From contig OW028585.1 of NCBI GenBank assembly GCA_932294295.1, positions 29,620,720 to 29,684,719 of the forward strand: 64,000 nt of DNA. The letters run 5' to 3'. The notes beneath the pieces are model-generated. The model was given only the letters and a program-made list of their open reading frames with translations, was not told where the DNA came from and did not search any database. The translations under genes were made by a program, and so were the position numbers. The DNA is from Alitta virens. Its lineage: Eukaryota > Annelida > Polychaeta > Phyllodocida > Nereididae. Every line of letters begins with the position of its first letter. Position 1 is the first letter of the stretch. Below are positions 11,493 through 64,000 of the stretch, piece after piece.

Positions 11493-11667
11493 GGTGGGGA
11501 CCTAACTCAGTGGTAGTGAGCTGCCCTTCCAGCCACTGGGTTCCGGTGGAGCCTAGATGGATGGCTGTTACATCCTTCATCTCATTGCCATGGTCCCTGC
11601 CTGTCCTAATTGGCCCATCAGGTGCAGAAATACAGGACATAAAGCCCTAATTCACCCACCCATTACT
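11493..11667 (+). mobile_element. SINE family A, founder copy of the satellite
   Basis: tRNA-like head: GGGACCTAACTCAGTGGTAG (box A) and ACTGGGTTCCGGTGGAGCC (damaged box B). Then GGATGGCTGTTACATCCTTC, TCATTGCCATGGTCCCTGCC and the tail TAATTGGCCCATCAGGTGCA to CACCCACCCATTAC. Its tail is unit 1 of the adjoining tandem array. Confidence 0.85.
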
Positions 11668-12663
11668 CTGCCTGTCCTAATTGGCCCATCAGGTGCAGAA
11701 ATACAGGACATAAAGCCCTAATTCACCCACCCATTACTCTGCCTGTCCTAATTGGCCCATCAGGTGCAGAAATAAAGGATATAAAGCCCTAATTCACCCA
11801 CCCATTACTCTGCCTGTCCTAATTAGCCCATCAGGTGCAGAAATACAGGACATAAAGCCATAATCCACCCACCCATTACTCTGCCTGTCCTAATTAGCCC
11901 ATCAGGTGCAGAAATACAGGATATAAAGGCCTAATCCATACACCCACCACCCTGCCTGTCCTAATTAGCCCATCAGTTGCAGAAATACAGGACATAAAGC
12001 CCTAATTCACCCACCCATTACTCTGCCTGTCCTAATTAGCCCATCAGGTGCAGAAATACAGGACATAAAGCCATAATCCACCCACCCATTAATCTGCCTG
12101 TCCTAATTAGCCCATCAGGTGCAGAAATACAGGATATAAAGCCCTAATCCACCCACCCATTACTCTGCCTGTCCTAATTGGCCCATCAGGTGCAGAAATA
12201 CAGGACATAAAGGCCTAATCCATACACTCACCACCCTGCCTGTCCTAATTAGCCCATTAGGTGCAGAAATACAGGACATAAAGCCCTAATCCACCCACCC
12301 ACCACCCTGCCTGCCCTAATTAGCAAATCAGGAGCAGAAATACAGGACATAAAGCCCTAATTCACCCACCCATTACTCTGCCTGTCCTAATTAGCCCATC
12401 AGGTGCAGAAATACAGGACATAAAGCCCTAATTCACCCACCCATTACTCTGCCTGTCCTAATTAGCCCATCAGGTGCAGAAATACAGGACATAAAGCCGT
12501 AATCCACCCACCCATTACTCTGCCTGTCCTAATTAGCCCATCAGGTGCAGAAATACAGGACATAAAGCCCTAATCCATCCCACCCACCACCCTGCCTGTC
12601 CTAATTAGCCCATTAGGTGCAGAAATACAGGACATAAAGCCATAATCCATCCCACCCATACCC
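11597..12663 (+). repeat. 71-bp satellite derived from a SINE tail, 15 copies
   Basis: Units start CTGCCTGTCCTAATTAGCCC, continue ATCAGGTGCAGAAATACAGG and end ACCCACCCATTACT. Starts at 11597, 11668, 11739, 11810, 11881, 11952, 12023, 12094, 12165, 12236, 12307, 12378, 12449, 12520 and 12592: period 71 except one 72. Unit variants differ by a few bases. Confidence 0.97.
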
Positions 12664-20850: not shown

Positions 20851-22750
20851 CTGTAGACAGTTTTGGCAAGTGCACAGTGGCTACTGACAGTTTTGGCTAG
20901 TGCACAGTGGCTACTGACAGTTTTGGCTAGTGCACAGTGGCTACAGACAGATTTGGCTAGGGCATGGTGGCTACTGACAGTGTTTGGCTGGTGCACAGTG
21001 GCTACAGACAGATTTGGCTGGTGCACAGTGGCTACAGAGAGTTTTAGCTAGGGCACAGTGGCTACTGACAGTTTGGCTGGTGCACAGTGGCTACTGACAG
21101 TTTTGGCTAGTGCACAGTGGCTACTGACTCTTTTGGCTAGTGCACAGTGGCTACAGACAGATTTGGCTAGGGCACGGTGGCTACTGACAGTTTTTGGCTG
21201 GTGCACAGTGGCTACAGACAGATTTGGCTGGTGCACAGTGGCTACAGAGAGTTTTAGCTAGTGCACAGTGGCTACTGACAGTTTTGTCTAGTGCACAGTG
21301 GCTACTGACAGTTTGGCTAGGGCACAGTGGCTACTGACAGTTTGGCTAGTGCACAGTGGCTGCCGACAGTTTGGCTGGTGCACAGTGGCTACTGACAGTT
21401 TTGTCTAGTGCACAGTGGCTACCGACAGTTTGGCTAGTGCACAGTGGCTACTGACAGTTTGGCTGGTGCACAGTGGCTACTGACAGTTTGGCTAGTGCAC
21501 AGTGGCTACTGACAGTTTGGCTGGTGCACAATGGCTATAGACAGTTTAGGTTAGGGCACAGTGGCTACTGACAGTTTGGCTAGGGCACAGTGGCTACTGA
21601 CAGTTTGGCTGGTGCACAGTGGCTACTGACAGTTTGGCTGGTGCACAGTGGCTACTGACAGTTTGGCTAGTGCACAGTGGCTACTGACAGTTTGGCTAGT
21701 GCACAGTGGCTACTGACAGTTTGGCTGGTGCACAATGGCTATAGACAGTTTAGGTTAGGGCACAGTGGCTACTGACAGTTTGGCTAGGGCACAGTGGCTA
21801 CTGACAGTTTGGCTGGTGCACAGTGGCTACTGACAGTTTGGCTGGTGCACAGTGGCTACTGACAGTTTGGCTAGTGCACAGTGGCTACTGACAGTTTGGC
21901 TAGTGCACAGTGGCTACTGACAGTTTGGCTGGTGCACAGTGGCTACTGACAGTTTGGCTAGTGCACAGTGGCTACTGACAGTTTGGCTGGTGCACAATGG
22001 CTATAGACAGTTTAGGTTAGGGCACAGTGGCTACTGACAGTTTGGCTGGTGCACAGTTGCTACTGACAGTATGGCTAGTGCACAGTGGCTACCGACAGTT
22101 TGGCTGGTGCACAGTGGCTACTGACAGTTTTAGCTAGTGCACAGTGGCTACAGACAGATTTGGCTGGTGCACAGTGGCTACATAGAGTTTTAGCTAGGGC
22201 ACAGTGGCTACAGACAGATTTGGCTAGTGCACGGTGGCTACTGACAGTTTTTGGCTGGTGCACAGTGGCTACAGACAGATTTGGCTGGTGCACAGTGGCT
22301 ACAGAGAGTTTTAGCTAGGGCACAGTGGCTACAGACCGATTTGGCTAGTGCACGGTGGCTACTGACAGTTTTTGGCTAGTGCACGGTGGCTACAGACAGA
22401 TTTGGCTAGTGCATGGTGGCTACTGACAGTTTTTGGCTAGTGCACAGTGGCTACAGACCGATTTGGCTAGTGCACGGTGGCTACAGAGAGTTTTAGCTAG
22501 GGCACAGTGGCTACAGACAGATTTGGCTAGTGCACAGTGGCTACAGACAGTTTTTGGCTGGTGCACAGTGGCTACTGACAGTTTTAGCTAGTGCACAGTG
22601 GCTACTGTCAGTTTTGTCTAGTGCACACTGGCTACAGACAGATTTGGCTGGGGCACAGTGGCTACTGACACTTTTGGCTGGTGCACAGTGACCATAGACA
22701 GTTTAGGTTAGGGCACAGCAGCTGCAAATAGTTCTGGTTAGTGGACAGTT
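20851..22750 (+). repeat. Large minisatellite, 29-31 bp unit, about 60 copies
   Basis: Unit: GTGCACAGTGGCTACTGACA then GTTTTGGCTA. Unit-length variants (29, 30, 31) come from the T run. A marker variant (ACAATGGCTATAGACAG) recurs at 21531, 21735 and 21997, and ~210-bp blocks in 20845-21260 recur near 22085-22320: higher-order duplication. Open frames across it on both strands (AQWLLTVLAS-like) are by-products of the repeat. Confidence 0.97.
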
Positions 22751-26898: not shown

Positions 26899-28229
26899 AT
26901 GGCCAAGGTGAAACGCAAGTATCACTGCAATGCTGAGATTAAAAGCCGCATCATTGGTCTGCGCCAGGGTGGCATGACACATGGAAACATCCATAAGTTA
27001 CTGAGAAGTGAGAAAATACCAGTCTCACTGCCGACAATAAAGAGAATTGGTCTGCAATTCAAGACCACAGGGTCCATTCAACGGAAAGACCAAAGGTGAC
27101 CATCGAAAAAGATGACAGGCGTCTTAAATTTGCTGTGTTATAGGACAGGAAAACGTTCCTTCAAAGCCTGGCACAGGAGTTCGTCACTGCCAGTGGTAAC
27201 AAGGTTTCAAGACGGACCATTAGCAGAAGGCTATCACAATATGGTTTTTCTTCAAAAAGGTGTGCCAACAAGCCACTCCTATCCAAAAAGAACATAATAA
27301 GGGATAGGCTGCGTTTCCACTCGAAGTATGGTAATCTTGATGAAGAGTAATTTGATAAGGTCATCCGGAGTGATGAATCTCGGTTCGAATAGAGTCTTTT
27401 CACTGAACAGCTCTGAATTCAGCAAGACATAAGTCTTTCCTCTCTTCTTATTACTCATTTTGCTTTTCAGACACAGTAGGTAATAACTAAGTGATTCCAT
27501 AAATATAACTTTCTCAGTAAAATAACAAACATCAACTGAATGATAATGTGTCAAATATACATTAAAATGCACTAAAAATACTGCTGCTTGGATGCACTTT
27601 GCTTCAGCCAATGACAGTCAAGAGCGGGAACTTTTTCAGCCAATAGAATTGCAGTATTCTGTCTTAGCCACCTAGTGGAAATACAGAGAACCTTCCGTGA
27701 AAATCCACTATTGTTCTCTGAGTCTCCCGAACGTTGCATAAGACGGTCCATTGAAAGATTTCACCCTGACTGTATTTCCACTACAGTCAAGCATGGTGGA
27801 GGTGGTGGAATCATGGTCTGGGATGCCTTCTCAAGTGCTGGCGTTGGCGAGCTTATCAGATGTGATAAGTCTGTAAATGCAGCCGAATACTTGAAAATTT
27901 TGAAGAAAGGCCTTCTCCCTAGCATTAGGAAACTTTTCCCTGGTGAAAACAATGAAAGTTTAGTATTCCAGCATGATAATGCCCCAGCAAAAGTGACAAA
28001 ACAAAATTTAGAACGCAACTCTATTACTTCCATGTTTTGGCCGGGACAAAGTCCGGATTTAAATCCGATAGAAAACCTATGGGCCTACATGGAGGGCAAA
28101 CTAACTGGACAGAAGTTTGCAAACACAGAGGAGCTTTGGAAAGCAGTGAAATTTGAGTGGGAAAATGTAGACAGTCCCAGGTGTTTAAGGCTCTCTAGAA
28201 GGGTGGCAAAAATACTAACTCTTCTTTAA
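26899..28229 (+). pseudogene. Tc1-family transposase, interrupted
   Basis: A DDE transposase pseudogene. Start chosen at MAKVKRKYHC (26899). N-terminal helix-turn-helix IKSRIIGLRQGGM ... LPTIKRI. The frame stops at 27100 and continues in another frame from 27100 (VTIEKDDRRLKFAVL, stop, DRKTFLQSLAQEF ... SRRTISRRL), with further stop TAA near 27347, then IRSDESRFE with the first catalytic Asp. A MITE interrupts at 27390-27710. It resumes LFSESPERCIRRS and has HGGGGGIMVWD, QHDNAPAK (second Asp, 27975) and WPGQSPDLNPIENLW (Glu, 28071). Only 31 residues separate the last two acidic residues; Tc1 normally has 34, so a small deletion is likely. Not functional. Confidence 0.94.
27392..27708 (+). mobile_element. 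MITE, GAGTCTTTTCAC family, copy 3, inside Tc1
   Basis: 317 bp flanked by TA (27390-27391, 27709-27710). Left end GAGTCTTTTCACTG, right end CGTGAAAATCCAC. It splits the transposase frame right after SDESRFE. Confidence 0.92.
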
Positions 28230-30039: not shown

Positions 30040-30255
30040 CCCGTTTCAGAATTGAATTCTGCTCACTGGCGCTTGGCATTGAGTATGGAATCAGGGGTCA
30101 TTCTGAAATGGTATCTTGGTATCAGAGTTTGGTATCAGAGTTTTGGCAGCAGAGTTTGGTATTACAGTTGAGAGCTGGGGTGGGATTTGAACCCACGTCC
30201 TGAGTGCCAGTGGTTTAGCAGGCCAGTGCTCTAACCATTAGGCCACAGTGCTCTT
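30040..30255 (-). mobile_element. tRNA-like SINE, family D
   Basis: On minus: AGAGCACTGTGGCCTAATGG then TTAGAGC (box A), GACGTGGGTTCAAATCCCAC (box B), a tandem GGTATCAGAGTTT stretch (in + orientation) and a tail. The 5' half resembles a tRNA, but a long tail and internal repeats show a SINE. Confidence 0.7.
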
Positions 30256-48509: not shown

Positions 48510-50690
48510 ATGTCCTGTTTAATGTTAATGTTATTCGTTGGATTCTAAATACAACATTCAAGTAACTTTATACAACCCTCAGGCCTGTCATGTGTGCATA
48601 TTTGCTTAGCATAAGCATTAACAATTACTTTATCTTACATAAGCTAATCTTGATAACAATAGGCCTACATTCATTAGTGAGCTTAGCTTCATGGTTTTAC
48701 ATAAGCTCATAATTGGCAGTAATAACAATGCCAGTAGTGCAATCAAAGACAGGTCAATTGCAATTAACATATGGGCCTAATGTGTGGTGTCAGCTGGGTA
48801 TTCAACTGTCAACTCAAAAGCTATTGAAGTGTTCAACTGTTCAAAGCATAATTAACAATGCATGCCTCGCAGTGGCATTTTAACCATTGTGGCATTTTTA
48901 GCCATTTTGAGATATAACAAAAGCGGGGCTCAAAGAGTTATTTTTAATCAGGACAAATACAGTGTTCTCCCCGAAAATATATTTAAATAACCTGGGAAAT
49001 TAAAAATAAAGAAAAGTGTGAAAAAGCCAAAATAATTTTTGAGTGATTATACTGTCAGAATAATAATAAAAAACCTTTTAATTTGCAACTTCTTAAGCAT
49101 TTATAGATGTTAGACAATATATATATATATATATATATAGGACCTATTTGTTTCTGCTAATTTGATACCTTGAATGTTGAAAAAACAGACAATGTTATTC
49201 TGAGAAACTCCTTTAACTCCAATTGTATAATAGGTTATTTAAAAACCGAGACTATAGTCTCTAATTACATGTAAGTTTCATATTATATAAGTACAGGCAA
49301 GATATACAAGGTACGCTTATTCATAAAATTGTTACCTCAGGTTTCTCCCATAGAAATTCTGTTCAAAGAGCGGAAAATTTATGTATATCTAGTAGAGAGA
49401 GCAATGGCATTATAGAAAGTCTTACTTCATGATAATTACATTAAACCATGGTCGGATGAATATATTTTCAACTTACAAAGGCATTTTAATAACCTTATTT
49501 ATATTTTTATCTCTGGTGTTCTTACACGATTTAATTTGTATATTTGTTAATAGAAATCTATATCTTGTTCCCTAGTTTTTGGGGGTTGAATAAATAAATA
49601 AATTTAATATAAATTTAATTTATTGTATTTAAAAAAAAATTGTGATGCTATTTTGCATGACTTCACTTTAAAAAAATGAGTGTAAAGGTAGACCTGCTCT
49701 TGATATGTAAATGAAGTCATAAAATGATATATATAGGCCTATTTTATTTTACTGCATGTTTAAATGACATTGCTGCTTATAATGTAGCTTTATGTCGATC
49801 TAGCTTTGTTTACCATCTATATAGTCTATCAATAGTATTATATTAAGTCAAGGCCATTATGTCCCAAGCTTAATATAAAGGACCATATTATGGTCATGAC
49901 ATAATATATGACATAATTCATGAATGAATATTATTAACAATGACACGTGAGGAGGCCCTTCATGAAGAATCCATAGATTCTACGACGCATATAAATTATA
50001 CTATTTCCATATATAATATCCTGGATTCTCCGCTAGCCAGAGCAATATGGTAAACAAGGTGTATATTCTACATCATGGCCAAGATAACACCACGTGACAC
50101 CAATATATTATACTCTTTTGTATACAAACACACAGCTATAGCTGCATGACCTCATCCAACAACAGATGGCCCGTATGGAAAAATACTGAGACTTAAGACT
50201 CTACATAAACAATCACAATAACATATTGAAAAGCCGAGGCCCCCGATATTTAATAAATCAATACAACAGGAGAGGAAATCTAGTTTTAACAATATTTTAG
50301 GCTAGAATATATATTCCATTGACATTCCCATCATGAATTCATTCTCATTTAGACCTCGATCTAAAAGGCCTATCCTACAAACTTGTATAGGCCTACATGT
50401 AGGCCTACATAAATTAGTAATATTAATTTCTAATTCTAGAATATGGAATATAGGCCTAATAGAGTCTGAGTTCAGCTGAGCTATGTACATTAGATCTATG
50501 TGATCTATAGGGCTCGTGTAGATATACATTGTATGTAGGCCTAGCCAGTTCCATGGTTTGACTAGGCCATAGCTAGGCCTATATAGTTCTACCCTACTAC
50601 TATTAAAAACCACGATCTGGGGAAATTCCACGAAAAACGTTCCATAACGTTCTGGAACTTCCATAAACACCTGCCCTCCCCCCTTTAACA
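48510..50690. other. AT-rich intergenic DNA with TAGGCCT-rich patch
   Basis: No coding frame. A (TA)n microsatellite lies near 49118-49140. From 50340 to 50590 the palindromic word TAGGCCTA recurs many times, including an uneven direct repeat GTAGGCCTACAT. The rest is featureless. Confidence 0.5.
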
Positions 50691-51240
50691 TCATGATGAC
50701 ATATTGAGCGACCCCCCTCCCACTCAGCCTGGCAACAACCAGTTGGAACTAGTTTTGGCCGACGTGACGTATACAACGCTACGCCGACGTTTTACCCTAC
50801 TACTAATTTCTACATCCGCTATGATGATGAGGTTGAAAATTAAAAAACCAACTCATACTATATATTTTATTGCTAATTCAAAGTTTTATAAAGTTGATAA
50901 ATAAGATAGTATAACATATTGGACAATATTATGTGTAGTTTTTGTTAAATCAGGCGTGGGAACATGCGAACTATTTTCTGCGCCCACGCGCCATGATATG
51001 GCGCACTACTTGCGTCACCTTGGCAATATAAGCGCAGGAAATTTCCAGACTCTTCAGATTGGTCTGGGAGCTCGTAGGGGGAAGACAGGCAGGCTAGGAT
51101 TGGAGATATCACAATGGATGCATCGAAATATGTTCTATCTTTCTCTATTTCGCACACATATGTTATCGTATATGACAGACAGTATGAACTGGGATAACGC
51201 AGAGCTAGTTTTAACGTTCTGAGGACATAATTCTGAGCGA
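50690..51240 (+). promoter_or_regulatory. CpG-richer promoter-like region
   Basis: GC and CpG content rise sharply against the AT-rich flanks (for example GCCGACGTGACGTATAC near 50759 and GCGCCCACGCGCC near 50980). This precedes the putative multi-exon noncoding unit. The direction is inferred from the splice donors downstream. Confidence 0.45.
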
Positions 51241-51269
51241 GACGCTAGAATGTCGTATGACGCAGTTCA

Positions 51270-51281
51270 GCGCCATATTGG
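51270..51281 (+). promoter_or_regulatory. YY1-like site
   Basis: CGCCATATTGG fits the YY1 core CGCCATNTT, a motif often close to metazoan transcription starts. It lies in the proposed first exon or just upstream. Match by eye only. Confidence 0.35.
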
Positions 51282-51481
51282 ATTTTGTCTGGGCGTTATG
51301 AAAATGTCTCGTAAAGTAGGCACAGATGGGGTATACCAAGCCTATATCTGAAGCTAAGCGGTAGCTGTATTTGTCGTTACAGAAACAGTTCATGAACGAT
51401 CGTTGGACTTCGTCGCTCGCATCTTGATGGTAAATAGAATTTTTTTCTTTATGTGCTATTTTTAGAAACCTGATGGACACG

Positions 51482-51489
51482 TGACGTCA
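51482..51489. promoter_or_regulatory. Perfect CRE (TGACGTCA)
   Basis: A full palindromic CREB/ATF site just inside the proposed first intron of the noncoding unit. Confidence 0.4.
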
Positions 51490-51723
51490 GAGTTATGTCA
51501 TTCTGGAAACGTGGCTATCGAGTAGTTTTGTAATCAACATAATCAATAGTTATGAGTCAGTAAGGTTGTGCAACAGCAACCTGGTTGTGAAAGAGTGATG
51601 CAATAATTTGACTCATTTTATAGTTCGTGGACATTTCACAAGTAGGCTGCAATGTGTGGCGCTTATGAAGTCGCACGCTTCTTGTGAAGGGAAATATTTA
51701 TGATTCACTTTCTTCTTCCTCAG

Positions 51724-51784
51724 GCTGTTCCAAATGGAACGAAACCCATCTGCGAACGAGATTGGTTGAATATGGTTCTAGCAA
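51724..51784 (+). ncRNA. Candidate exon 2 of the noncoding unit
   Basis: 61 nt between a good acceptor (TTCTTCTTCCTCAG) and donor (GTAAGG). One frame is open (AVPNGTKPICERDWLNMVLA) but the preceding exon-like block offers no matching start, so coding is not claimed. Confidence 0.4.
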
Positions 51785-52788
51785 GTAAGGTTGTTGTGGT
51801 ATTTGGTAAATATGCTTTTATCAAACCAGGCAAGTGTATATCACTCTATTGGCTTAATATGCCGTCTTTGTGGTGTGGCCTGTTTAGGTGTAATGAACAA
51901 CGGAGTGTGTAACAGGTGGAATACTGATATGATAACAATATATATTGCTGAGTGTAACTGATTGACATATGGCGAGTATTAAAAATCAAAGATATTCTTA
52001 ACTTAAACTTATTGCATTAGTGTTCACTGTTGGGTACTGGGATGAATTTGAGGGATAGGGGGTTGTGTTACCAATTTCCTGTTGTACATTTTATAGGTGC
52101 AAGTTGCTGCTTCCAAACCTTGCATAATCCTGAAAAAATGGTGACCTATGCTGAAAAGTAATGTTATGCTGAGATGTGCAGTACTTAACCATACTTCTTT
52201 GATACAGTATTTTCATCATGGTCCACCAGAGCAGGGAGTTTAACACGCATACATTTCCATTTTCCCTTGTCATTTTGGTATTTTGTCAATATTTAGTTAG
52301 CTCTGTGTGTGACCTTGATTTTACGGAATGTTACTCATTCCTTACACAGGTGTACTGTCATGTTGTGGAGACCAGACCTTGAGAAATTTTAAGTCAACTA
52401 ATCAAGTCGTCCCTCTGAAGATTGACTCTGTACACGCGGTTTCAAGCAAAGTATGAGTGAGCGATGAGTACTAAAAGTCTATCCTTCATTTGACATTTCG
52501 GGTTTTTTCGGGGGGCTTCTCTCAAGTTTACTTTCAGAAAGCAGGGTGTATAGCCAGTTGCCCCAGGATATGTGGAACTCCTGAGACTGTCATGCTGAGC
52601 AAAAGCAGGGCTGAAGTTAGACCAAATGAGTACATTCACTTTATTAGATACAAATGTTAATGAGAGCTCTAAATTTGGTGAAAGCACCTTAGTTTCTACA
52701 TGATTGAAATTTTAGCATTCTACTACATAATTTAGGTATTTAGCTCAACCTTATTCCCACAACTTTCGCAAGCAGCTTTCAATGTCTG

Positions 52789-52806
52789 CCAACCAGTACA
52801 GGTTGG
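52789..52806 (+). other. Acceptor-proximal hairpin H1
   Basis: CCAACC-AGTACA-GGTTGG, a perfect 6-bp stem. A candidate 3' splice site (AAACCAG) follows 42 nt later at 52848. Confidence 0.6.
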
Positions 52807-53058
52807 TAATTTGTGGTAATCCATTGCATTGTATCTACCTCAAACCAGGAATGTCAAGTCTGCGAGTTTATGACTGCTGATTGAAGCCCTGAAGATGACT
52901 TCCGTCTTGCTATGGTCTGGACAGTCAGTATCTCCCTAGAATTAGCATCTGGAACGCCTCTGAAATTCACCTCCCAAAGTTTTGGTGGTATATGCATGAA
53001 ACAAATTTTTTTTTTTCTTTCTAAATTTGGTTATGATGAGACTTTAGTTATGGAATGC

Positions 53059-53076
53059 CCAGCCTGTACAGGTTGG
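53059..53076 (+). other. Acceptor-proximal hairpin H2
   Basis: CCAGCC-TGTACA-GGTTGG, with one G.U pair where H1 has A-U. Acceptor CCCTCTCAG ends at 53145. Confidence 0.6.
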
Positions 53077-53357
53077 TGAACACTAATTCTGTGTAACATT
53101 GTAAAAGGCATGTGTGCCTTGTTTGGATGTATCTATCCCTCTCAGCAGGTCTCTCCTTATTAGAAAGGAAGCAATATTTCAAGATGCCCGCACCTGCAGA
53201 ATGGTGATTGGTCTGGTCCTATCCATCGAGAAACTATGGTTTGCTTGATCCGCATTACTAGTGTTTCAGATGAAATATTTTAGTACAATAGCTTTTTGGT
53301 AGTGATATTTCTGAAGTTAAATACATTTAGAAAAATTGACCAAATTCTTAGCGTACC

Positions 53358-53377
53358 GTCAACCAGTACAGGTTGAC
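53358..53377 (+). other. Acceptor-proximal hairpin H3
   Basis: GTCAACC-AGTACA-GGTTGAC, a perfect 7-bp stem; the outer pairs differ from H1 on both sides. Acceptor TTATTTTAG ends at 53416. Confidence 0.62.
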
Positions 53378-54890
53378 TTCTTGTGTCCTGATGTCTTGAT
53401 TCCACATTTATTTTAGCACTGTTCTACTGAAGTATGGAACTGCCTGGCTATATTCCGTATCATAGTCTGCACCGACTCCCATCCTGTCGACCTAGTGGTT
53501 CTGGATGAAAGACTTGACTGGTAAACCAAACCATGCTAATTTTTACTTGGCATTCCTTTGTTACCTTGCCATGTTCTTGTTTTGTCCATTGGACATCTTT
53601 TGAAGCAGATATGAATGAATTGGGATGGTCCTAATCAGGTCTGGTGTGACTGAACGACCCTTGCTTATTGAGCGACAGCGGTTCAAGAGCCCAGTGGATA
53701 AGATAAATTGCTATATTTTTCATTAGACATTCTTATTTGGAGCAATATGCTTTTAAAAAAAATTGCTTGAGTGTAATTGGTGCCATTCTACAACATGAAA
53801 AGCTCTGGATATCATTCTCAACGGAAATGCTTTGATCTAGAATGATTCTAATTTTCATAATTAATGATGAACAAGCCTAGAAATATGCTGTGGATAACCT
53901 TAAATTTAATACCTAAATGATCTGCAGTTAAAATGATCTGGGGAATGCATTTGAAGTTGTATAAACCTTGCAAGTTGGATAGCTACAGCATTTTATTTCA
54001 AAATCTGGGATAAGTTCCAGCAAAATGGATCTAACAAAGTTGCAAATGCGCAAAGTTTTATGCCTGCCTCCTGCAGGATTGGATGTGTTTTTACAAGTGT
54101 ATTAGCAGGCTGTTTAGCAAGCCTTGCCGGGATTTCCATAGAAACAGCATTAGAGCTGTAAGAAGTTTTCGTCGGGAAGATTCCAATATGCAGTTTTGAA
54201 GGGAAGTCCAAAGATGTCCTTGTGTGAAGGATGGTGACCTAATCCTGGGGGATCGTAGGAAGTACAGGAAGAAGTCTTATCAGTGTGGTATTTCTTGTGT
54301 ATATCTGATGTAGATGATGTAGATGGTGGTTATCTGATTGATATAATGGAGAAGTACTCTGTAAGGAAATTTAATGAGTTGTATGTAATAGTTATGTTTG
54401 TGAGCTGTAAGATGCAATCAATATGACCTTTAGTTGGTGAGAATTACATATCAATGGATATGCCAGTAAATGAATAATGGATGGGGGGATGGGGTGATAA
54501 TAATCTTGCCAAGTTGCCTTTCAGCCTTAGATCATGGAGAGTTCAGGTAGACTAGTTGTGTGCCACTATCCCTGTTATCGATCCTTATGAAAATGTCCGG
54601 AGGAGAGACCCCCACCTGGCTCTGTCGAAACCCAGCCGCATCTTGAAATTCGTGTTCTTATGCATCTGTCACGGCTGCCAGTTGGCAATGCGGTATCTGT
54701 AGCTTCATCTATAAAATGATTTATGATAAAATCTTGTGCCTTCCAAAGAAGAGACAAAACATGTATTTGGTGCTGAGATAATACAAGTATGAAATGGAAC
54801 TTGTAGTTAATATACGGAATCCAGCTTAGTTGTAAATGTACAGTAATTTTAGCCAGTTGTGCATCCTTTTGGTTCATGTAAACAATTTGG

Positions 54891-54912
54891 GCCTGACCAG
54901 TACAGGTGGGGC
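54891..54912 (+). other. Acceptor-proximal hairpin H4
   Basis: GCCTGACC-AGTACA-GGTGGGGC, 8 positions with one mismatch and one wobble. Acceptor CTCCCACTAG ends at 54950. Confidence 0.58.
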
Positions 54913-55989
54913 AAATTTTTCTTGATCGATCATCGTTTCTCTCCCACTAGAATAGTAAACACTCCCTCATAAACAGGCTTGAAGTGAAGGTTCCTCAGAA
55001 ACTGACCATTGGAAGATCAGAAATTTTCTTTGGATTGGTCAAGTAGGATGATGTGCATCGCCAAGTCGCACAAGGCTGCCCACAAGTCTTCCATCTCATT
55101 GAGCGGTATTCCTATTTACTGTGTTCTGCCTGCTGAGGCTGCATTTGTCTGGCCATGTATCTTCTACCTTGAACAGACCGAACTTAACTTCTGAAGTGAC
55201 CTATCGCCTGCCGTAGTCTCGTAGGACTGAACATTTCTTGGAAGACCTCAAGGGGGAAAAGGTGTCTTGTGACTCGTGAGCCTAGGTGTTCCATGAAGCC
55301 ATTGCTGTTACCTGAGGTCGGAATTGGCTGAGGTCATAGGATCCACAACAGATAGCTGCCCGATGCAGAACTGTCAATCATGGTATCTCCACATCATTTA
55401 ATTATTTGATTAGGCACTGAACTTTTCAAGTCTCTGGTAAATGTTGCCTTCAGAGGTTTTTGTAAAGGAATAATACAAAGTTGGTCTTTTTGCCTTGTGC
55501 TCTGTCAAAATAGTAATGCAAAAATTGTGTAAACAATCTGCTGTAAGATTAGTGTTATCTAAATAACATTTTGTAATAGCTTTGGGGAAATAACATTTTG
55601 TAATAGCTTTGGGGATATTGGCGGGGCATATTAACCATGTTAATTTCAGACAACAAACAACTTGTCGGGCTATTCGTTGCGATCTGCATCATGTGATGCC
55701 TGGTGAAAGCCTTCCCCGTCGAAGAACACTTGGCCATTTTCTTGAGTCCTTTGCTATCTGAAGCTGATCTTCTGGAAAAAGAAACTCTCACAGGTTTTAT
55801 TGCATAGTATTAGTTATGATGCTCTGGGCTGCAATTGTTTAAACTGAGCCTCTGATTAATTGTTATAGAACTACTGATTTATTTATAAATGGAGGCAATT
55901 AATTACATTACCATAATTGCATAGCTTGCAATGTAATCGACATGAAACTTTGCTTACTTTTGGTAACTTTGATTAGTGATTTTTTTTCT

Positions 55990-56005
55990 ACCAGCATAGG
56001 CTGGT
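55990..56005 (+). other. Acceptor-proximal hairpin H7
   Basis: ACCAGC-ATAG-GCTGGT, a perfect 6-bp stem with a different loop. Acceptor TCCTGTCAG ends at 56043. Confidence 0.55.
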
Positions 56006-56432
56006 TAATTGCCTGTTGAATTGGCAAGTTTTTGTCCTGTCAGGTTTCAAGGATTTCTTGGGTTCAATGGAAACTCGATACTTTAAATAGCAAGTTCAGA
56101 AGTACAATGTGTGGTAGCTGCCCAAGGCCATCTGGAAAAAGCAGCAGGAATTGCAACGCTGTTGTGGGAGTAGCGACCCAAGCATTCGGCGCTATGGAGC
56201 TATGCGAAAAGCCCTGAATCTTACCGGTATTTCTTCAATTGTGTTCTGTGCGGTATCTCCATTTAATTATTACCAAAATTTGAAGTTCTACAATATTGTT
56301 TTAAGACATCAGCAAATTATTGGCATTGAGCATATATTGCTTAAATTATGTATTGGGTTTTTGGTGTACAATATTTTTTAGATCTTGATAATATGACTGG
56401 CATTGAGCAGTTGTAGTACGGAAATAGTGTTT

Positions 56433-56451
56433 GCCCATCCTAGAGGTGGGC
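56433..56451 (+). other. Acceptor-proximal hairpin H8
   Basis: GCCCATCC-TAGA-GGTGGGC, a 7-bp stem with one bulged T. Acceptor TTATCGTAG ends at 56482. Confidence 0.55.
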
Positions 56452-56959
56452 TGTTGGTGTTGCCATGTACATTTTATCGTAGTCAGGATACCCTCGTGTA
56501 GTGATGGTTGAAACTTGGGATTCTGAAGATTAGGAAAAGACTAATTGGTCTGCTAGAAACATGGATATCCAAGAATCCATGTAGGAAGGACCTTCGTGAA
56601 AACTGATGCGACTTCTGAGGTTTCAAGCCCAAGCTGACATCGGAAGCAATAAGCGCGACCAAGACTGCTCTGATGTATGCTAGGTGACATTTCTTGGGAG
56701 GGAATGCGTTGGTGAACAACTGGTACACTGCATCCAGGATAGAACACCCGTGGTGACAACTCGCCCAGACTGGTATTTTCCCATTCCTTGAAATTACTTT
56801 ATATTGTGGTAGTGCACTTCAAATCCGAATGAAATCTATTATACAACCAGATGTACTGTAAGATATATATTATATATATATAGTTGACATAATAGGTCTT
56901 GGTGACTTCTTCATGTTAAAGTTCACTCATTTACAGTGTTTTGTATTAAACTTTATTTA

Positions 56960-56976
56960 GCCAGCCTTTGGTTGGC
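56960..56976 (+). other. Acceptor-proximal hairpin H9
   Basis: GCCAGCC-TTT-GGTTGGC, a 7-bp stem with one wobble. Acceptor TTCTCCCTAG ends at 57005. Confidence 0.55.
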
Positions 56977-57333
56977 CATGTTCCTTGACTTGTCTTTCTC
57001 CCTAGTTGCTTATAGGAGTGCGTATGGCCATGTGTATGCTCCCAATTACTTGTACTGTCCATGGCTGTCCCATCTAGCCGTTAAGATTGAATCTCCGTCA
57101 AGTTATGCGACCCTCCATTGTGCTGTTCATCATCCGAAAACTATGTAACATGTTCCTGTGGGATCGTGAGGTCAAATATGGGTATTTCTATTTTTGTGTC
57201 ATTTTGTGGTCTAATACCTTCTGAAATTGGTTGAAGTAACCTGTGTCAGCAGTATCTTACAATATCTAGTATGTGCTGTAATTGATTATAGTGCTGTATA
57301 CACTGAGTAAAAGATGTAGTTGCAGTAATTTGT

Positions 57334-57354
57334 GCCCAGCCTTTTAGAGGTGGG
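57334..57354 (+). other. Acceptor-proximal hairpin H10
   Basis: CCCAGCC, loop TTTTAGA, GGTGGG: stem with a bulged A. Acceptor TTATTGTAG ends at 57385. Likely a paralogue of H8, 900 bp away. Confidence 0.5.
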
Positions 57355-58724
57355 ATGTTGGTTTTCTGTGTGTAGTTTATTGTAGCAGTGCAAGGTGGGA
57401 CTTAGTTTCTGATGAGCTGAGATGAACGCTGGTCTTAGAACCTGGGTACGAAGGAACGTAGTGAGGAAAGCGGTTCCCCTTAGCCTGCATATGAAGAAAC
57501 TTGAGGAAAGGCGCAACCGTTCTGCCAAGCTTTATGTACCGCCTACCTAGGCTGCCAAATGCGTAGTGGTGACAACACTCACAAGCGATGCTTCTTCCAA
57601 TGTTCCATTGATGCGTAGCTGGTGAAAGAAACGAATGCGAAAGAAAAACCACAAGTTCGCCTGATGGGCCAAGATGGTATAACCTATCCCTTGAAATAGT
57701 GACTCCAATATTGATTACATCAAAGACAAATCTGCTAGAAAAACTATAATTGGATGTAAAGATAGTGGAATTTTGGATGTGTTTTTGCAATGTTTTCTGA
57801 CCCCAGTTCCCTTTAGGAATGGCCTAGTCTGCTTTCCATGAGTGTCATACATCAACCTGTACATCTGTTCTGCCCTCCATAGCCTTTACGCAGTCGAAGA
57901 ACGATGACCCTCGCTCAGTCTATACGATTTACACCAAGGTCTCGTCATTTGCCTGAAGGTGCTTCAGTCTCGACTTATCAAGCTGCGGAGTTCTACTGTA
58001 CGCCGATGGCCGTCGAATTGTAGCTGTGTTATATTCAAGTTGTCAGGTTGGCTCCATCATATTGTCGTTCTTGGAGAAATTAGTTATGGTGTAAACCTTT
58101 TTGAAGTATGTGATGACTTTCACTGAAACGGAAGTAATGCACAATTTGTTATAAAATTCTTGTATACTTCGCTATGATAACATTTAAATACTTGAAAATG
58201 CTGCGGTTAATGCTAAGTGACGTGCAAATGTAAACTGACTCGAGTGTTTAGACATTGTGGACTACTGTTTAGCCATTTTCCCCACCAGCTGGGGCATGTC
58301 ATGCTTTACCTTGACCAGTTTGTACCCCCTTAGGAATAAGGAAATTTGGCTGTTACTCTCTGCTGTTTGCCTATTGGGAACGCTACCCTGATCCTGCGTG
58401 GATATGTGTCGATGCGTGTTGAAAGCCTCAGAAATCCTGCAATCTTGGCCAAATATGCGACAACACGGAATAAGCAACCATTGGTCGAAATGGATCCTTG
58501 TAGGTTCCATATTCCTGATTTGGTAAAATTGTTGATTAGTTATAAACTAAAGCAGTTTTCTGTTTTAATCGTCCATGACATAACACTAAGATGTGAATTT
58601 AAATGTAATACTTGCTTAAAAAGTTGAATTAAAATTAATTATAACTGCTTAAAACGTGTAGAAAAGTCGAGCATTGCTGTAAGGGATACTTAACACTTTA
58701 AATGGTAGCTGAAACTTTGTAGAA

Positions 58725-58747
58725 ACCCCACTAGTACAGGTAGGGGT
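58725..58747 (+). other. Acceptor-proximal hairpin H5
   Basis: ACCCCACT-AGTACA-GGTAGGGGT, a stem with one bulged A. Acceptor TTTTGCCCAG ends at 58779. Confidence 0.57.
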
Positions 58748-59154
58748 ATCATTGCTTGATATGTACAGTTTTTGCCCAGTTACGGAGCTGAATCTATAGG
58801 CCCAGTTAAGACTTCCTGGATTGCAAGTTAGTGCTGCGTTTCACAAGGTCGTACGGCGTTCGAAACTGCTTGGGAAGGATGTGGAGTTGCAATCATGGTG
58901 TTGAAAGCTGACCAGTACTCACGGGAATGGCAGGAATCGAAACTGTCAAGGTTGGAGTTTCGTGAAACTTTATTAGAGGATAGCATATAACCAAAATAGG
59001 TAACAATATAAAAATGTACTGCAGTATATGGTGTACATATAATAAATGACAGAAATGTGATAATTCAGTTAAATTAGTTTTACTTGGGGTATTTTAATAA
59101 AAAAGTGTATGATACTATAATTATTAAATAGATTTTGTATTAATTAGTTGAACA

Positions 59155-59174
59155 CCCCACCAGTACAGGTGGAG
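59155..59174 (+). other. Acceptor-proximal hairpin H6
   Basis: CCCCACC-AGTACA-GGTGGAGG, 5 bp next to the loop then a mismatch. Acceptor TTGCCTAG ends at 59207. Confidence 0.57.
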
Positions 59175-59207
59175 GAAATTGTTTTAACATGTTTGGTACT
59201 TGCCTAG

Positions 59208-59398
59208 TCAGGGGTTTAGAGAAGGTCCAGAGTGCAACAGGTGTCAAACCTGAAAGACCTAGCGAAAGACAGCTGTGAATGGTTAAACAGACCGGGACTT
59301 CCTTGGGTGATGCCATCAGGAAATAGTGCGTCCAGCAATCTACCATTGAGAGGACTTCCTTGCGCCGTTTAGAGGTTACCATAATATGGTACAATTTT
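59208..59398 (+). ncRNA. Candidate noncoding exon after H6
   Basis: 191 nt between acceptor TTGCCTAG and donor GTACAA. All three + frames contain stops. GC-richer than the flanking intron-like DNA. Confidence 0.4.
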
Positions 59399-60756
59399 GA
59401 AGTGTTGTAGTTTGGTACCAAATTATATTTCTGTGAATTTGTTGGGGGGGTGGGGAAAAGGTAATCTTGCCCAAATTTATTTCAGTAACCATGTTCCATA
59501 CGGTAGTAAATCGCAGGACTGACCTTCAGAAAACCTTAGAATTATAGCAGTGAAGCAAACCAGGATTCGAATAGGTCTTTTCCCCTTTGGCTATCCTGTG
59601 CCAGGTCACATATGCGAAAACCAGTTCGGTGGGAACGTGTTAGGATGACTGATCACTAGACTGAAGACATCTTCATTGAGGATGATTCTCCCCGAGAGCC
59701 TGTAGGGCGCTCCAGATCATCACAAGTTAGGACGTAAGCCAATGCGAAGACTATTTGTTTATTTGGGGGGTGGGTAACTTTACCTTGAAGCTTTGTTCAC
59801 TTTCAGAATTTAGGTTTTGCTCCTGACAAGTGTCTCCTTCGGCTAGGTCACTAGGACCACCACTGGTATGAAGTGAAATGCCTTACTGTTCTGTGCTCCG
59901 ATCTTCTTGCATTTACAAGCACCCTGACAAGCTCCTTTCCTTCGCTCTCTACTTCAATGCGTCCCTGATGCGAGCTGCAATGCAGTCGGCCTGTTAGTGT
60001 ATTGTGTGAAAATTCGACCAAGACTTGTCAAGCCATTTAGGTAATGCATTGGTGTTATTGATTATTTGTCAATTCAGCTAGTTATTGGTATTTTTGTGTA
60101 CATAACACCAGGGGGGTTGGGTTAAGTTTAACCTGTCATGGCAGTTATTTTCAGTACAACCAAGGTGTTAGCTAACAGACGCTACAGTCAAGCAAAGTGA
60201 ATTGCTCCATGTATGAACCTGGAAATTGATCTCCAACGAGGCATTGTGAGAAAGTAGAAACTGAGACCCATGGGTTATGGAGTAGCTCTTGTGTTGAGCA
60301 GTTAAGTTGCATGTAGTGGTTTGCTGTAATTGTGAAAACTTGTGATGTGCATTTAGGGGGGTGGGTTCAGTGAAGTTATGCCAAATTGGATTACAGAATG
60401 TGACCGGGTAGCTTACTGAATGTGAGGAATCTATACCCCTGTTAGAAGGAACTGTTATCTGGCTGACAGCTATCACAAAAGTGAACAAAAACGTGTATGC
60501 TAATGGTATGTTAAGCTTGTGTTGATGTTTTGATTATCACTTGGAATTTTTTGTACTTCTGGGACTTAGGGGGGTTTCATTAACACCTTACTTAGATGCA
60601 TTTCAGAATGTCCCTAGGATTTCTCTCCTTGCCAACCTTCGTGGATATTGTAACAGCTTGGTATTCATTGCTTTGACCTTATATTTGTATTTCTCACCTT
60701 GACTTCATTTTTCAATACGGGGGGTGGGAGTCCTAACCTTTTCCAGTTCTTTGCAG

Positions 60757-60851
60757 GAGTAGGTGCATTTGTTATCAGCTTGTCTTTTGATGAACGCACA
60801 TGATGTTGCTGCTTCCCCTCAAAAACTAAGTTCCCTGCGCTATGGTGTTCG
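60757..60851 (+). ncRNA. Candidate exon type X, copy 1
   Basis: 95 nt. Preceded by GGGGGGTGGGAGTCCTAACC and CCAGTTCTTTGCAG, followed by donor GTAAAC. It contains AGTAGGTGCA and GTGTTCG. Its reading frames contain stops. Confidence 0.5.
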
Positions 60852-61132
60852 GTAAACTTACTCTTTGGTATTTATTAATTGACTGAACGTGTGGTATTAG
60901 TAATTGACATAACTTCTAAGACTAAGGAGTGTATTCACAGATGTGTTAGTGTGTGTAAATTTATGCAGATGTAATCAACAATGAGATACAATATACAAAA
61001 GCATTGGCTGAACTAGCGTTTAAAGAACTAATATCAGATCACTTAAATGAAAAACTGTTGATTGAACTTACTTAACCCTGCCGTTATGGCCCTCTGTGTT
61101 GTTGCCTTGGTTCTGTATCAATTGCAAGTTAG

Positions 61133-61273
61133 AATCGTCATAAGGTGAAAATGGTCCTGACCCCTGGTGTGGCTTACACGCGGTTTCCAAATCGTCTGAA
61201 TTCCTGATGTTGCATGGTGACTTGATCCAAGTGTGGATTCACAGAGAGTGGTTGACTGGACAGTATGCCATGG
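61133..61273 (+). ncRNA. Candidate exon type Y, copy 1
   Basis: 141 nt. Acceptor GCAAGTTAG, donor GTATAAC. Contains GAAAATGGTCC, TCTGAATTCCTGATG and GGATTCACAGA. Homologous to the block at 63167-63306. Confidence 0.45.
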
Positions 61274-61786
61274 GTATAACATCTTTTGTACTGACATGAT
61301 CATGATCTTTTGTACTGACATGATCATGAAAGTTTTTTGGAAAGTGTATTATGAATCTAAATAAGCCTCAGTTGTGATAATTAACACTAGTAGACTCCTT
61401 GTTTGTATATAAAGAGTGATAATGATAAGACTGAAACCCATATGGAGATGTAAAAGAGATTATGCTATCGATGCAAGGGCAAAAGGGGGGGATAATTTTT
61501 GAGTTCTTGCAGGTTTCTCGTTGTGAAAAAGATTCAGAAAAGATTCAGAACATGTTGAAGGTTTCTATGTGAGCTATGACGTTTGAATTTGTGCATATTT
61601 TATGACCTTAGAATTTGAGCATATTTCACTGCATATTTCACTGCTTAATTCGCATGATCAACATTAGCAATATGATTGTTCAACTTTGCAATTCCTGTAA
61701 ACCTATAGTAGTAGCTTTTAGTTACATATTGTTTTTCTATGACAAGGGGGGTGGGTTCTATAACCTTTTCACCCAGTTCTTTGCAG

Positions 61787-61881
61787 GAATAGGTGCCCTT
61801 GCCATCGGCCTATCTTTTGTGGGATGCTTATGAATGCTCCTTCCTCCCAAATGTCTAGGTTCCTCTGTGCTTGGGTGTATG
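61787..61881 (+). ncRNA. Candidate exon type X, copy 2
   Basis: 95 nt. Preceded by GGGGGGTGGGTTCTATAACC and CCCAGTTCTTTGCAG, followed by donor GTAAAT. Homologous along its length to the copies at 60757 and 62750. Confidence 0.52.
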
Positions 61882-62116
61882 GTAAATTTTAATCTTGTGT
61901 TATTAACATTTGTAAAAAGAGCATGTAAACTTAAGGCATCAACGTATATATAAACTTTAAACTTATATAAACACTTGCTTAGTGTATACAATTTTATGTT
62001 GAAAGATGTTAAGACATGGTGTAAATAGAATTTTAAGACTTAAATATGACTGTTAAGTGAAACATCTTGTTCTGAAAGATATTTCTTTATGGAAACATAT
62101 ATATAGATCATGGTTA

Positions 62117-62135
62117 GCCCTACCGTATGGTGGGC
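62117..62135 (+). other. Acceptor-proximal hairpin H12
   Basis: GCCCTACC-GTAT-GGTGGGC with one bulged C. Acceptor CGAGTTAG ends at 62174. Homologous to H13 and to a weaker version at 61080-61090. Confidence 0.55.
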
Positions 62136-62510
62136 CATTTTGTGTTATTATCTTGGTTTTGTATCTCGAGTTAGGTTGAAAATGGATAGCCTATGCGAAA
62201 GTCGGGTTTCCCCAGGTCTGAAATACAGCCATTCAGGGATTCTAATAATGTTGATGAAGGTTCAACAAAACTGACGTGACAACAGTGTATTTGCAACAGT
62301 TTATTTTGAGTATACATGTCCTTTTTATATTCTGTCTTGTGAAGTGAAGTGACTGATTTGCAAGTCATAATCTGAACATACCTCAGTGGTAAAGAATACA
62401 TTTAAGCTATCAGTAGTGGTATATAAGCCATGATATATTGGTTATATAAGTTGGTTATGCGTAAATTTGATGTGAAGGGCCAAGGGGGGATAATTCTTAA
62501 GTTCTTGCAG

Positions 62511-62542
62511 GTCCCTTTGTTGTGTGCCATCTATGAAATTTG
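62511..62542 (+). ncRNA. Candidate exon type Z, copy 2
   Basis: 32 nt between AAGTTCTTGCAG (preceded by GGGGGGATAATTC) and GTAAGA. The homologous blocks start at 61513 and 63544 with the same G6 run and TTGCAG acceptor; their donors are uncertain. Confidence 0.4.
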
Positions 62543-62749
62543 GTAAGAGTTGTTCGCGGACACAAACATGTGAGCTATGTTCTTTGTGCATTTGTCAAAT
62601 GTTGCATTAATTAATTGCATGATCGATAATAGTAGGCTAATTGGTATTTTTACTATTCTGAACCTCCGATACACTACTATTGCCTGCTTTGTTATTTTAT
62701 ATGAATAGGGGGGGTGGGTATCTTAACCATTTTCCCCAGTTCTTTGCAG

Positions 62750-62855
62750 AAACAGGTGCACTTTTCTTGAGCTTGCCCAAGTTACCTGTGTGGGATGCTA
62801 ATGAAATGACGCTCATTCCTCCCAAAATGTTGGTTCTTCTGTGCTTTGATGTGCG
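62750..62855 (+). ncRNA. Candidate exon type X, copy 3
   Basis: 106 nt. Preceded by a G-run with GGGTATCTTAACC and CCCCAGTTCTTTGCAG, followed by donor GTAAAC. Same flanking signals as copies 1 and 2; length differs by indels that would break a frame. Confidence 0.52.
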
Positions 62856-63107
62856 GTAAACTCTAATCTTGTTTTTAGCATTTGTGTTCTGAGCTTGCCA
62901 ACTGTGTAATTTTACTCTTGGTAACTTTCGGTGCATTAGTCGATTTGTACATGCATGCATACATGCAAAAACACGTAGAAAACTTGTCTTATCACAGTTT
63001 AAGTGTTACACTAGTGTAGAGGAAGACATGCTACATAAGACGAATACATAATTCAACATATGAGTGGTGTTATATTATGAAAACCAGTAGATTAGAACTT
63101 ATATTCA

Positions 63108-63127
63108 GCCCTGCCATTATGGTAGGC
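63108..63127 (+). other. Acceptor-proximal hairpin H13
   Basis: GCCCTGCC-ATTAT-GGTAGGC, same bulged C as H12. The two inner pairs that differ from H12 stay paired (A-U to G.U; U.G to U-A). Acceptor TGAGTTAG ends at 63166. Confidence 0.57.
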
Positions 63128-63166
63128 CCTTGTGTGTTATTGCCTTGGTTCTGTATCTTGAGTTAG

Positions 63167-63306
63167 GAACAACGCTTGAATTTGAAAATGGTCCCGAACA
63201 AGAACGTGGTTGTGCTGAAAGAGGTTTCTACCCAACTGAATTACTGATGATACGCGGAAATTGCTGACACTTGTTTGAGGTTGGGTTCACAGACACTATT
63301 TCATGG
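63167..63306 (+). ncRNA. Candidate exon type Y, copy 3
   Basis: 140 nt. Acceptor TGAGTTAG, donor GTATAAC. Contains GAAAATGGTCCC, ACTGAATTACTGATG and GGTTCACAGA. Copy 2, starting at 62175, is recognisable but its donor was not placed. Confidence 0.45.
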
Positions 63307-64000
63307 GTATAACTTTAGATACTGATGATACTTTCTAGATTCTTTCTGATAGATGTTCGTGATAATGTGAATATCTGATCATAATGCAATGGTAATGTGT
63401 ATAGTATCGATGACTTAAAACCATAGAATCAACTGATAACAATGGAAAGAAACGTCTATAAAACTAAGTATCTGAAACATGTTAAAAGCTGTTAAGATAA
63501 CTTTATAAGGGACAAGGGGGGGATAAATCTTGCGTCCTTGCAGGTTTCTCAATGTGTGCCATCTATTGAACTTGATGCGAAGTGTTGAAGGACACGGTGT
63601 GAGCTATTTTTCTTTGATTTTGTGTATTTGTCACTCCATATAAATTAATTGCATGATCACATTTAGCGGTATGATTATTCTTACGTTGTGATTTGTGTAA
63701 ACTTGGGTTTGAGGGGGGTGAAAGTCTTTGCAGGCTCTTAGGTGCGTGTAGAAGCTGTGTGCTGATAATCTTGTGCATTTTTGAAGTGCTTTGGTGACCC
63801 TGAAATACCCGAGAAGTACCTTGCTTTAAATGGTCTCAAGTATGTACATTTTCACAAAACTCTTTACTAGTTGTAGTTTGATTACTGTGATTAGGGGGGA
63901 GGGCCAATCTTGCACTCCTATCTAGTGTTTTACAGGTGTATGCTATAAACCAGTTTATAGGTTAATGAGTGAATTTGTGAAGTTCTGACACTTACTGTAA

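Follow-up and report, generated by a model that had tools for sequence, protein, structure and literature searches.

Dscam-type genes are characterized by competing docking and selector structures, host genes of small nucleolar RNAs (snoRNAs) such as UHG and GAS5 by many short noncoding exons, and repeat-rich long noncoding RNAs are known from Xist as well as from MIAT/Gomafu with its branchpoint-like repeats. The locus described here is located on chromosome 13 of the king ragworm Alitta virens, in a stretch of 64,000 nucleotides (29,620,720-29,684,719, + strand) that is termed the window in the following. It is probably a noncoding gene in which a G-rich intronic splicing enhancer, either bare or held in a small hairpin, is locked in position upstream of the predicted splice acceptors. 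A further 60 kb downstream were included (124 kb in total), and positions above 64000 are continued window coordinates. The locus appears to be an undescribed repeat-rich noncoding gene of a nereid annelid; searches of the open-access PMC literature revealed no paper on it or on a position-locked array of G6 runs and hairpins.

With regard to the systems named above, the ragworm locus resembles Dscam-type genes in that an intronic pairing element precedes each of many exons, but here pairing is local within each hairpin, the locus appears to be noncoding and there is no convincing docking site. Many short noncoding exons are shared with UHG and GAS5, from which the locus differs in that three tests (Rfam, intron folding and a scan for C/D boxes) revealed no snoRNA in its introns. 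As in Xist or MIAT/Gomafu, a long exon is full of tandem repeats, which in the ragworm are acceptor-like (CTACAG/GG, the slash marking the splice position); the likeness is one of repeat-exon architecture alone, and the ragworm is an annelid.

The closest precedent that we found appears to be a class of human enhancers. In human introns, enhancers of the G-rich and of the C-rich kind are reported to act together at -30 to -80; a G-rich motif can fully take the place of the other kind, a C-rich motif only in part (PMC2481429). The ragworm introns likewise carry G-rich blocks between -30 and -80 and 5' of the pyrimidine tract, some of them preceded by a C-rich block, with 4 of 26 G-runs located slightly closer, at -27/-28. 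Weak pyrimidine tracts, a further feature of the human class, are not evident in the ragworm (pyrimidine fraction of 0.69 and 0.68 in introns with the element vs. 0.71 in 11 comparison introns without it, p 0.25). Unlike the human motifs as described there, the ragworm element consists of G6-7 or a hairpin in which G and C blocks are paired, is locked at about -42 in the majority of the predicted introns of a single, probably noncoding gene and is far more uniform.

While splicing enhancers are normally loose and mixed signals, the same kind of element occurs here at the same distance from the acceptor in 37 of 48 predicted introns. It is present in two interchangeable-looking forms, and internal duplicates keep the element while their flanks decay. 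The locus could thus serve as a natural mutational series for studying in what way the U2 small nuclear ribonucleoprotein (snRNP) is assisted by a G-tract or hairpin located 5' of the branchpoint.

G-rich element and predicted splice acceptors

On the + strand, between about 51.3 and 73.0 kb, the locus is likely to represent a noncoding gene with a length of about 22 kb, which would probably comprise some 45-50 short exons and a long repeat-rich exon at its end. Decoded exons are 34-486 nt and introns 64-661 nt long, and the decoded introns run on past the window, to 66607.

51316..64000, + strand: gene body with many exons, predicted to be noncoding (splice decode)

Within this region, 28 runs of six or seven guanines are present on the + strand at 52.5-66.6 kb, reaching 2.6 kb past the window with the last one at 66568, and no C6 run was found between 50.72 and 80.4 kb. 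Eleven clear hairpins, all of them on the + strand as well, are located at 52787-59175. The donor and acceptor matrices of the splice decoder hold general animal values rather than values trained on the species. In a blind decode, without any knowledge of G-runs or hairpins, an acceptor was placed 27-46 nt downstream of 23 of the 28 G-runs, compared to a mean of 1.9 and a maximum of 8 for random positions (5000 trials). In seven of the eleven hairpins, an acceptor follows the G-rich arm at a distance of 36-48 nt (random positions: mean 0.4, maximum 4). The same picture emerged independently of any decoder. Among sites with an acceptor-like score above 8, a G6 run starts at -46 to -27 in 16 of 32 cases on the + strand of the locus, in none of 413 in a background of about 240 kb on both strands, and in none of 16 on the minus strand of the locus. 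At a score above 6 the corresponding numbers are 25/66, 1/1406 and 0/48. These counts support a link between the element and predicted splice acceptors that is restricted to one strand. An original prediction made from the letters of the window had proposed a cis element acting in splicing; the tie to acceptors agrees with it (16/32 vs. 0/413), while the C-rich and G-rich arms may matter as linear motifs instead of as the fold that had been proposed.

A second decode gave a bonus to acceptors near an element, such that its tallies of classes and distances are biased and not independent. It yielded 48 introns, of which 26 have a G-run, 11 a hairpin and 11 neither of the two. G-runs start at -33 to -46 in 22 of the 26 G introns and at -27/-28 in the other four, and the G-rich arm of the hairpins is found at -37 to -48 in ten of eleven cases, the remaining one being located at -78. 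In composition profiles, G introns exhibit a G peak at -42 to -31, and hairpin introns are rich in C at -54 to -49 and then in G at -48 to -31, with the highest values at -42 to -37. The G-run occupies the position of the hairpin's G-rich arm, just as had been suggested for the GGTGGG arm. Branchpoint-like motifs (e.g., TAACC or CTTGAY; score of at least 6, 11-40 nt before the acceptor) lie 3' of the element in 23 of 37 introns; the earlier proposal of a link to the branchpoint thus has a matching arrangement on its side, in a count without chance control. G-runs in the window include:

52510..52515, + strand: G6 run, -28 of acceptor 52537
54483..54488, + strand: G6 run in the hairpin zone, -42 of acceptor 54524
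59444..59450, + strand: G7 run, -42 of acceptor 59485
59765..59774, + strand: GGGGGGTGGG, -42 of acceptor 59806
60111..60116, + strand: G6 run, -44 of acceptor 60154
60356..60365, + strand: GGGGGGTGGG, -41 of acceptor 60396
60569..60574, + strand: G6 run with the end of a TTTCAG 38 nt downstream; intron left unresolved by the decode
60719..60728, + strand: GGGGGGTGGG, -38 of acceptor 60756; 10/10 columns invariant in three tandem copies
61485..61495, + strand: G7ATAA, -28 of acceptor 61512; 10/11 columns invariant in three tandem copies
61746..61755, + strand: GGGGGGTGGG, -41 of acceptor 61786
62484..62493, + strand: G6ATAA, -27 of acceptor 62510
62708..62718, + strand: G7TGGG, -42 of acceptor 62749
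63516..63526, + strand: G7ATAA, -28 of acceptor 63543
63713..63718, + strand: G6 run, acceptor not resolved by the decode
63894..63903, + strand: G6AGGG, -42 of acceptor 63935

Taken from sequence, the arrangement is best explained by a noncoding gene with a position-locked G-rich intronic splicing enhancer, a reading that we hold to be probable. Most predicted introns would bear a single G-rich element, which begins some 42 nt upstream of the exon and is located 5' of a branchpoint-like motif. In the 3' half of the gene this element would be a bare G6-7 run, and in the 5' half it would be a hexamer similar to GGTNGG that pairs with a C-rich arm (CCNNCC) to form a small hairpin. Its most likely role is that of an intronic splicing enhancer. 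We infer that the gene is transcribed and spliced and that a G-tract-binding factor, in part as the literature on such factors suggests an hnRNP F/H-like protein or else the U1 snRNP, would dock on the element and help the U2 snRNP and U2AF to take branchpoint and acceptor. A public polyA RNA-seq run of Alitta virens, ERR10123675, is listed in PMC10352625.

A related possibility is that the element consists of pseudo-donors, AG/GTNGG in the hairpins and GG/GTGGG in some G-runs, that recruit the U1 snRNP near the 3' end of the intron or act as recursive or decoy splice sites. Donor-matrix scores of 6.6 at 52802 and of 7.6 at 59770 and 60361 as well as the presence of AGGT in eight of the eleven hairpins (by reading) would fit this proposal. 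However, only seven of the 28 G-runs continue into GTGGG, the others being followed by A or C (G6ATAA, G7AAG, G6AATT; by reading), and the part that is shared is G6 and not a donor, which makes pseudo-donors improbable. A second G3-4 block closely follows the G6-7 run on its 3' side in 19 of 28 cases (by reading).

The restriction of the G6 runs of the locus to one strand, together with the palindromic GTAC core of the hairpin loops, could also point to a feature of the DNA itself, i.e., to protein-binding, G-quadruplex or R-loop sites whose position before AGs is incidental. The fixed distance to the acceptor, again on one strand only, and the joint conservation with TAACC and the acceptor in tandem copies (see below) speak against such sites, and we regard them as very unlikely.

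Hairpins in the 5' part of the predicted gene

At least twelve hairpins had originally been predicted, a slightly generous count, as eleven are clear and one further weak candidate is present near 54005. The loop AGTACA or TGTACA, reported for six of them, was indeed found in six. In agreement with the earlier observation that the hairpins stop after about 59.2 kb, the last one ends at 59175, and G-runs then continue to 66568.

52787..52808, + strand: hairpin 1, AGTACA loop; acceptor 52848, G-rich arm at -48
53059..53076, + strand: hairpin 2, (T)GTAC(A) loop; acceptor 53148, G-rich arm at -78 and as the sole one out of register
53358..53377, + strand: hairpin 3, AGTACA loop; acceptor 53416, G-rich arm at -46
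54891..54912, + strand: hairpin 4, AGTACA loop, stem with one internal mismatch; acceptor 54950, arm at -46
55990..56005, + strand: hairpin 5, ACCAGC/GCTGGT, ATAG loop; acceptor 56043, arm at -45
56433..56451, + strand: hairpin 6, CTAGA loop; acceptor 56486, arm at -42
56960..56976, + strand: hairpin 7, TTT loop; acceptor 57015, arm at -46
57335..57354, + strand: hairpin 8, weak (z -1.04) and with a bulge; acceptor 57385, arm at -37
58280..58294, + strand: hairpin 9, weak (z +0.18); acceptor 58333, arm at -44
58725..58747, + strand: hairpin 10, AGTACA loop, one A bulged; acceptor 58779, arm at -41
59155..59175, + strand: hairpin 11, AGTACA loop; acceptor 59211, arm at -44

Folding energies with z below -2 were obtained for seven of the eleven hairpins, and the values for the other four are -1.62, -1.08, -1.04 and +0.18. 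It is the shared motif and its position that are unusual and not the number of hairpins, which are at best slightly enriched. The core AC[CT][AT]GTACAGGT occurs five times in the locus, always on the + strand, and nowhere else on either strand of the 124 kb. When hairpins of any sequence were counted at 52.0-59.3 kb, 26 reached a score of 15 (mean of 19.1 and maximum of 22 in 15 simulations), 14 a score of 16 (mean 11.3, maximum 19) and eight a score of 17 (mean 6.6); the general excess is slight at score 15, and scores 16-18 are inside the simulated range. With regard to position, a hairpin score of at least 14 was found at -75 to -30 in five of the eight acceptors at 52.6-59.3 kb that lack the shared loop, compared to 12.9% of random windows (p 0.0014), and a score of 15 in three of the eight (p 0.03).

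For the six hairpins that share the loop, 90.5% of the cells are paired and the covariation score amounts to 0.400, values that were each reached by 7 of 500 shuffles. Four cells are double-changed (reached by 24/500 shuffles), seven further pair types occur (reached by 179/500), and pairing falls to 19-52% when the 3' arms are slid by 1-3 columns. The covariation originally claimed for the stems is supported by pairing and score, while the number of double-changed pairs does not stand out from shuffles (see below). On the whole, hairpin covariation appears supportive but modest, and it does not amount to proof because only six paralogous sequences are involved. A covariance model built from the six and run against 264 kb recovered all of them along with their own reverse strands, one further match at E 0.23 and several above 1.

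Tandem copies and confinement to the locus

60690..63690, + strand: two-exon unit of about 1 kb, present in three tandem copies that have diverged (repeat search, alignment)

In the alignment of these three copies, the first G-run (G6TGGG) is unchanged in 10 of 10 columns and the TAACC motif in 5 of 5, followed by the first pyrimidine tract plus AG with 17/18, the second G-run with 10/11 and the second tract plus AG with 12/17. Lower values were obtained for the donors (6/9 and 7/9), exon A (52/90) and exon B (23/55), and the remaining columns are identical in 216 of 633 cases (two G-runs vs. rest of columns, Fisher p 1e-8). This comparison says that G-runs decay about as slowly as splice signals within the tandem units. 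A block at 61085-61134, outside the decoded exons, is partly conserved (19/25 and 14/25) and may be an exon missed by the decoder.

Tandem duplication offers an explanation of its own, namely that the units spread by duplication, that intron ends resemble each other by ancestry and that G-runs and hairpins are functionless by-products of descent. Recent tandem copies do exist at 60.7-63.7 kb, intron ends are often of the TTTGCAG type, and a few G-run intron ends outside the tandem block resemble each other. On the other hand, the G-runs of the tandem copies are near-invariant in comparison with the remaining columns, arms of the hairpins have changed on both sides in three of seven pairs, and strand and register are constant over about 14 kb. 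In addition, a search for repeats at 50-64 kb (copies of at least 24 nt) detected mainly short likenesses of intron ends outside the tandem block. We therefore consider mere descent unlikely.

In the genome searched (671 Mb), 51240-59200 matched only itself and 59200-64000 only itself and one repeat-like stretch of 38 bp, in a similarity search that passes over simple repeats and very common words. The 38-bp match (C3) was rejected as a sister locus, as it is a repeat-like stretch with long G and C tracts. In an exact-pattern search of the genome, the hairpin core CCAGTACAGGTNG was not enriched elsewhere, with 28 genome matches vs. 49 for the reversed control, and four of the 28 fall into the locus, all on the + strand. 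For the pattern GGGGGGTGGGN{8,32}YTTNCAG, 86 genome matches compare to 43 in the control; five of them fall into a 5.5-kb part of the locus, and elsewhere in the genome there are never more than two separate sites per 10 kb. As searched, the genome appears to contain neither a second copy of the locus nor a comparable cluster of motifs.

Several observations weigh against a position-locked enhancer. The element is lacking in 11 of the 48 introns, about three of which (63352, 63786 and 64600) look mis-decoded by reading, and branchpoint-like motifs reach the cut-off in only 14 of the 26 introns with a G-run and 9 of the 11 with a hairpin, in a count without chance control. Pyrimidine tracts are not measurably weaker in introns with the element, and a role in compensation is therefore unsupported within the locus. 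Double changes affect three of the seven stem pairs of the six loop-sharing hairpins, a number reached by 76 of 500 shuffles, and at E values up to 10 their covariance model recovered none of the other five hairpins, whose likeness therefore is one of place and arm composition and not of sequence. The G-run region 59442-59479 matches the C3 repeat over 38 bp at 92%, and some G-runs may be derived from repeats. The combination of G6, a TAACC-like motif and CAG was encountered 504 times in forward and 199 times in reverse orientation (controls 87 and 264), numbers that are inflated by overlapping starts in long G-runs and stem from a pattern too loose to be informative; outside the locus these are single occurrences, among the matches listed in C1 and at the start of C2. 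Finally, specificity for the locus was judged only from exact-pattern counts in the genome, the 240 kb background and the model search of 264 kb.

Predicted gene boundaries, coding potential and small RNAs

50601..51600, + strand: CpG-rich stretch, probable promoter or start region (CpG composition; first decoded donor at 51316)

The ratio of observed to expected CpG is 0.8-1.25 in all five 200-nt windows of this stretch. Among the other twelve 200-nt windows of 49.6-53.0 kb, it amounts to 0.0-0.65 in eleven and to 0.85 in the directly adjoining one. The CpG-rich stretch is also the place where a docking site of the Dscam type would have to be considered, with G-rich selectors before the exons competing for a C-rich docking site and only some exons being used. 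Its C-rich tracts CCCTCCCCCC and CCCCCCTCCC (50674 and 50712; within 50674-50721) form 9/10 and 8/10 Watson-Crick pairs with GGGGGGTGGG, and the C-rich arms of the hairpins could conceivably pair with downstream G-runs. However, windows with at least eight Watson-Crick pairs are less frequent on the + strand (6) than on the minus strand (36), and four of the six on the + strand lie at 50674-50983, in promoter-like, CpG-rich and maybe untranscribed DNA. As homologous exon variants are furthermore mainly found in the tandem block (50-64 kb searched) and the arms in hairpin introns pair locally, docking is highly improbable.

The probable last exon extends from about 66.6 to 73.04 kb, is filled with repeats and has an AATAAA at 73017. 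In this region (66.6-73.05 kb), CTACAGG occurs 46 times on the + strand and not at all on the minus strand (0.2 expected), and TCCAG 42 times on the + and nine times on the minus strand. As a separate observation, the repeats resemble weak splice acceptors (YCTACAG/GG). A bolder version of the enhancer proposal would be a gene with a splice code of its own, in which hairpin and G-run are interchangeable forms of one acceptor-side element read by a dedicated factor. Dozens of introns would then be spliced or held back together, apart from the rest of the transcriptome, and the RNA, with 46 acceptor-like CTACAGG repeats in its last exon, would be architectural and gather splicing factors; we consider this rather unlikely.

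The locus looks noncoding. In line with the earlier statement that no coding frame explains the pattern, 14 of the 18 predicted exons of at least 100 nt contain stops in all three + frames, and the other four have one open + frame; the minus strand is open in eight of the same 18. The longest + frame in the joined decoded exons (5160 nt) comprises 119 codons, and + open reading frames (ORFs) of at least 110 amino acids are absent at 50-64 kb. Overlapping stop-free frames of 250-308 codons in the last exon stem from a 15/25-nt repeat; they are weak evidence of coding because they are repeat-derived and all three frames are open. Six minus-strand ORFs of 111-148 amino acids are located at 50.3-60.5 kb, and their comparison with Pfam gave no match above the cut-off. 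Five minus-strand ORFs (111-148 amino acids) at 54.5-60.6 kb overlap predicted exons. A protein-coding minus strand was set aside as chance on the basis of a rough estimate and the Pfam comparison only.

Many short introns between noncoding exons, with nine of the eleven hairpin-class introns being 213-287 nt long, are also what would be expected for a host gene with one snoRNA per intron and a hairpin that aids its release. No Rfam family reached the gathering score in the part of the locus within the window, and even among weak Rfam matches (E up to 5) in the locus and the downstream 60 kb there was no snoRNA family. None of the 37 of 48 intron bodies that are long enough for folding has a z below -2 (lowest -1.98), and the same holds true for the 21 decoded exons folded. 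Pairs of C/D-like boxes were detected three times on the + and once on the minus strand, compared to 1.1 in shuffles; divergent H/ACA RNAs lie outside the models. A snoRNA host gene is thus extremely unlikely. Sub-threshold Rfam matches, all on the minus strand and all taken as chance, were SAM-II (E 4.4) in the locus and mir-1324 (0.95), RAGATH-7 (0.34), FTX_2 (2.8) and mir-296 (2.4) downstream.

Several repeats were noted in the surrounding DNA. A tRNA-like match above the Rfam gathering score (35.1 bits) at 30172-30252 on the minus strand, with an inserted stretch and without ARAGORN call, is probably the head of a short interspersed element (SINE) or a tRNA pseudogene. A fragment of a Tc1/mariner-like transposase (Pfam DDE_3, E 1.4e-8) is located at 27615-28229 on the + strand, and 20856-22718 is occupied by a tandem array of about 63 copies of 30 nt with a higher-order period of 204 nt. 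At 11597-12659, a minisatellite consists of about 15 copies of a 71-nt unit that by eye resembles the body of a tRNA-derived SINE-like repeat. The same SINE-like repeat is present at L006:3250-3390 and near 80271, 82823 and 97007 (continued coordinates), and the minisatellite appears to be a piece of this SINE amplified in tandem.

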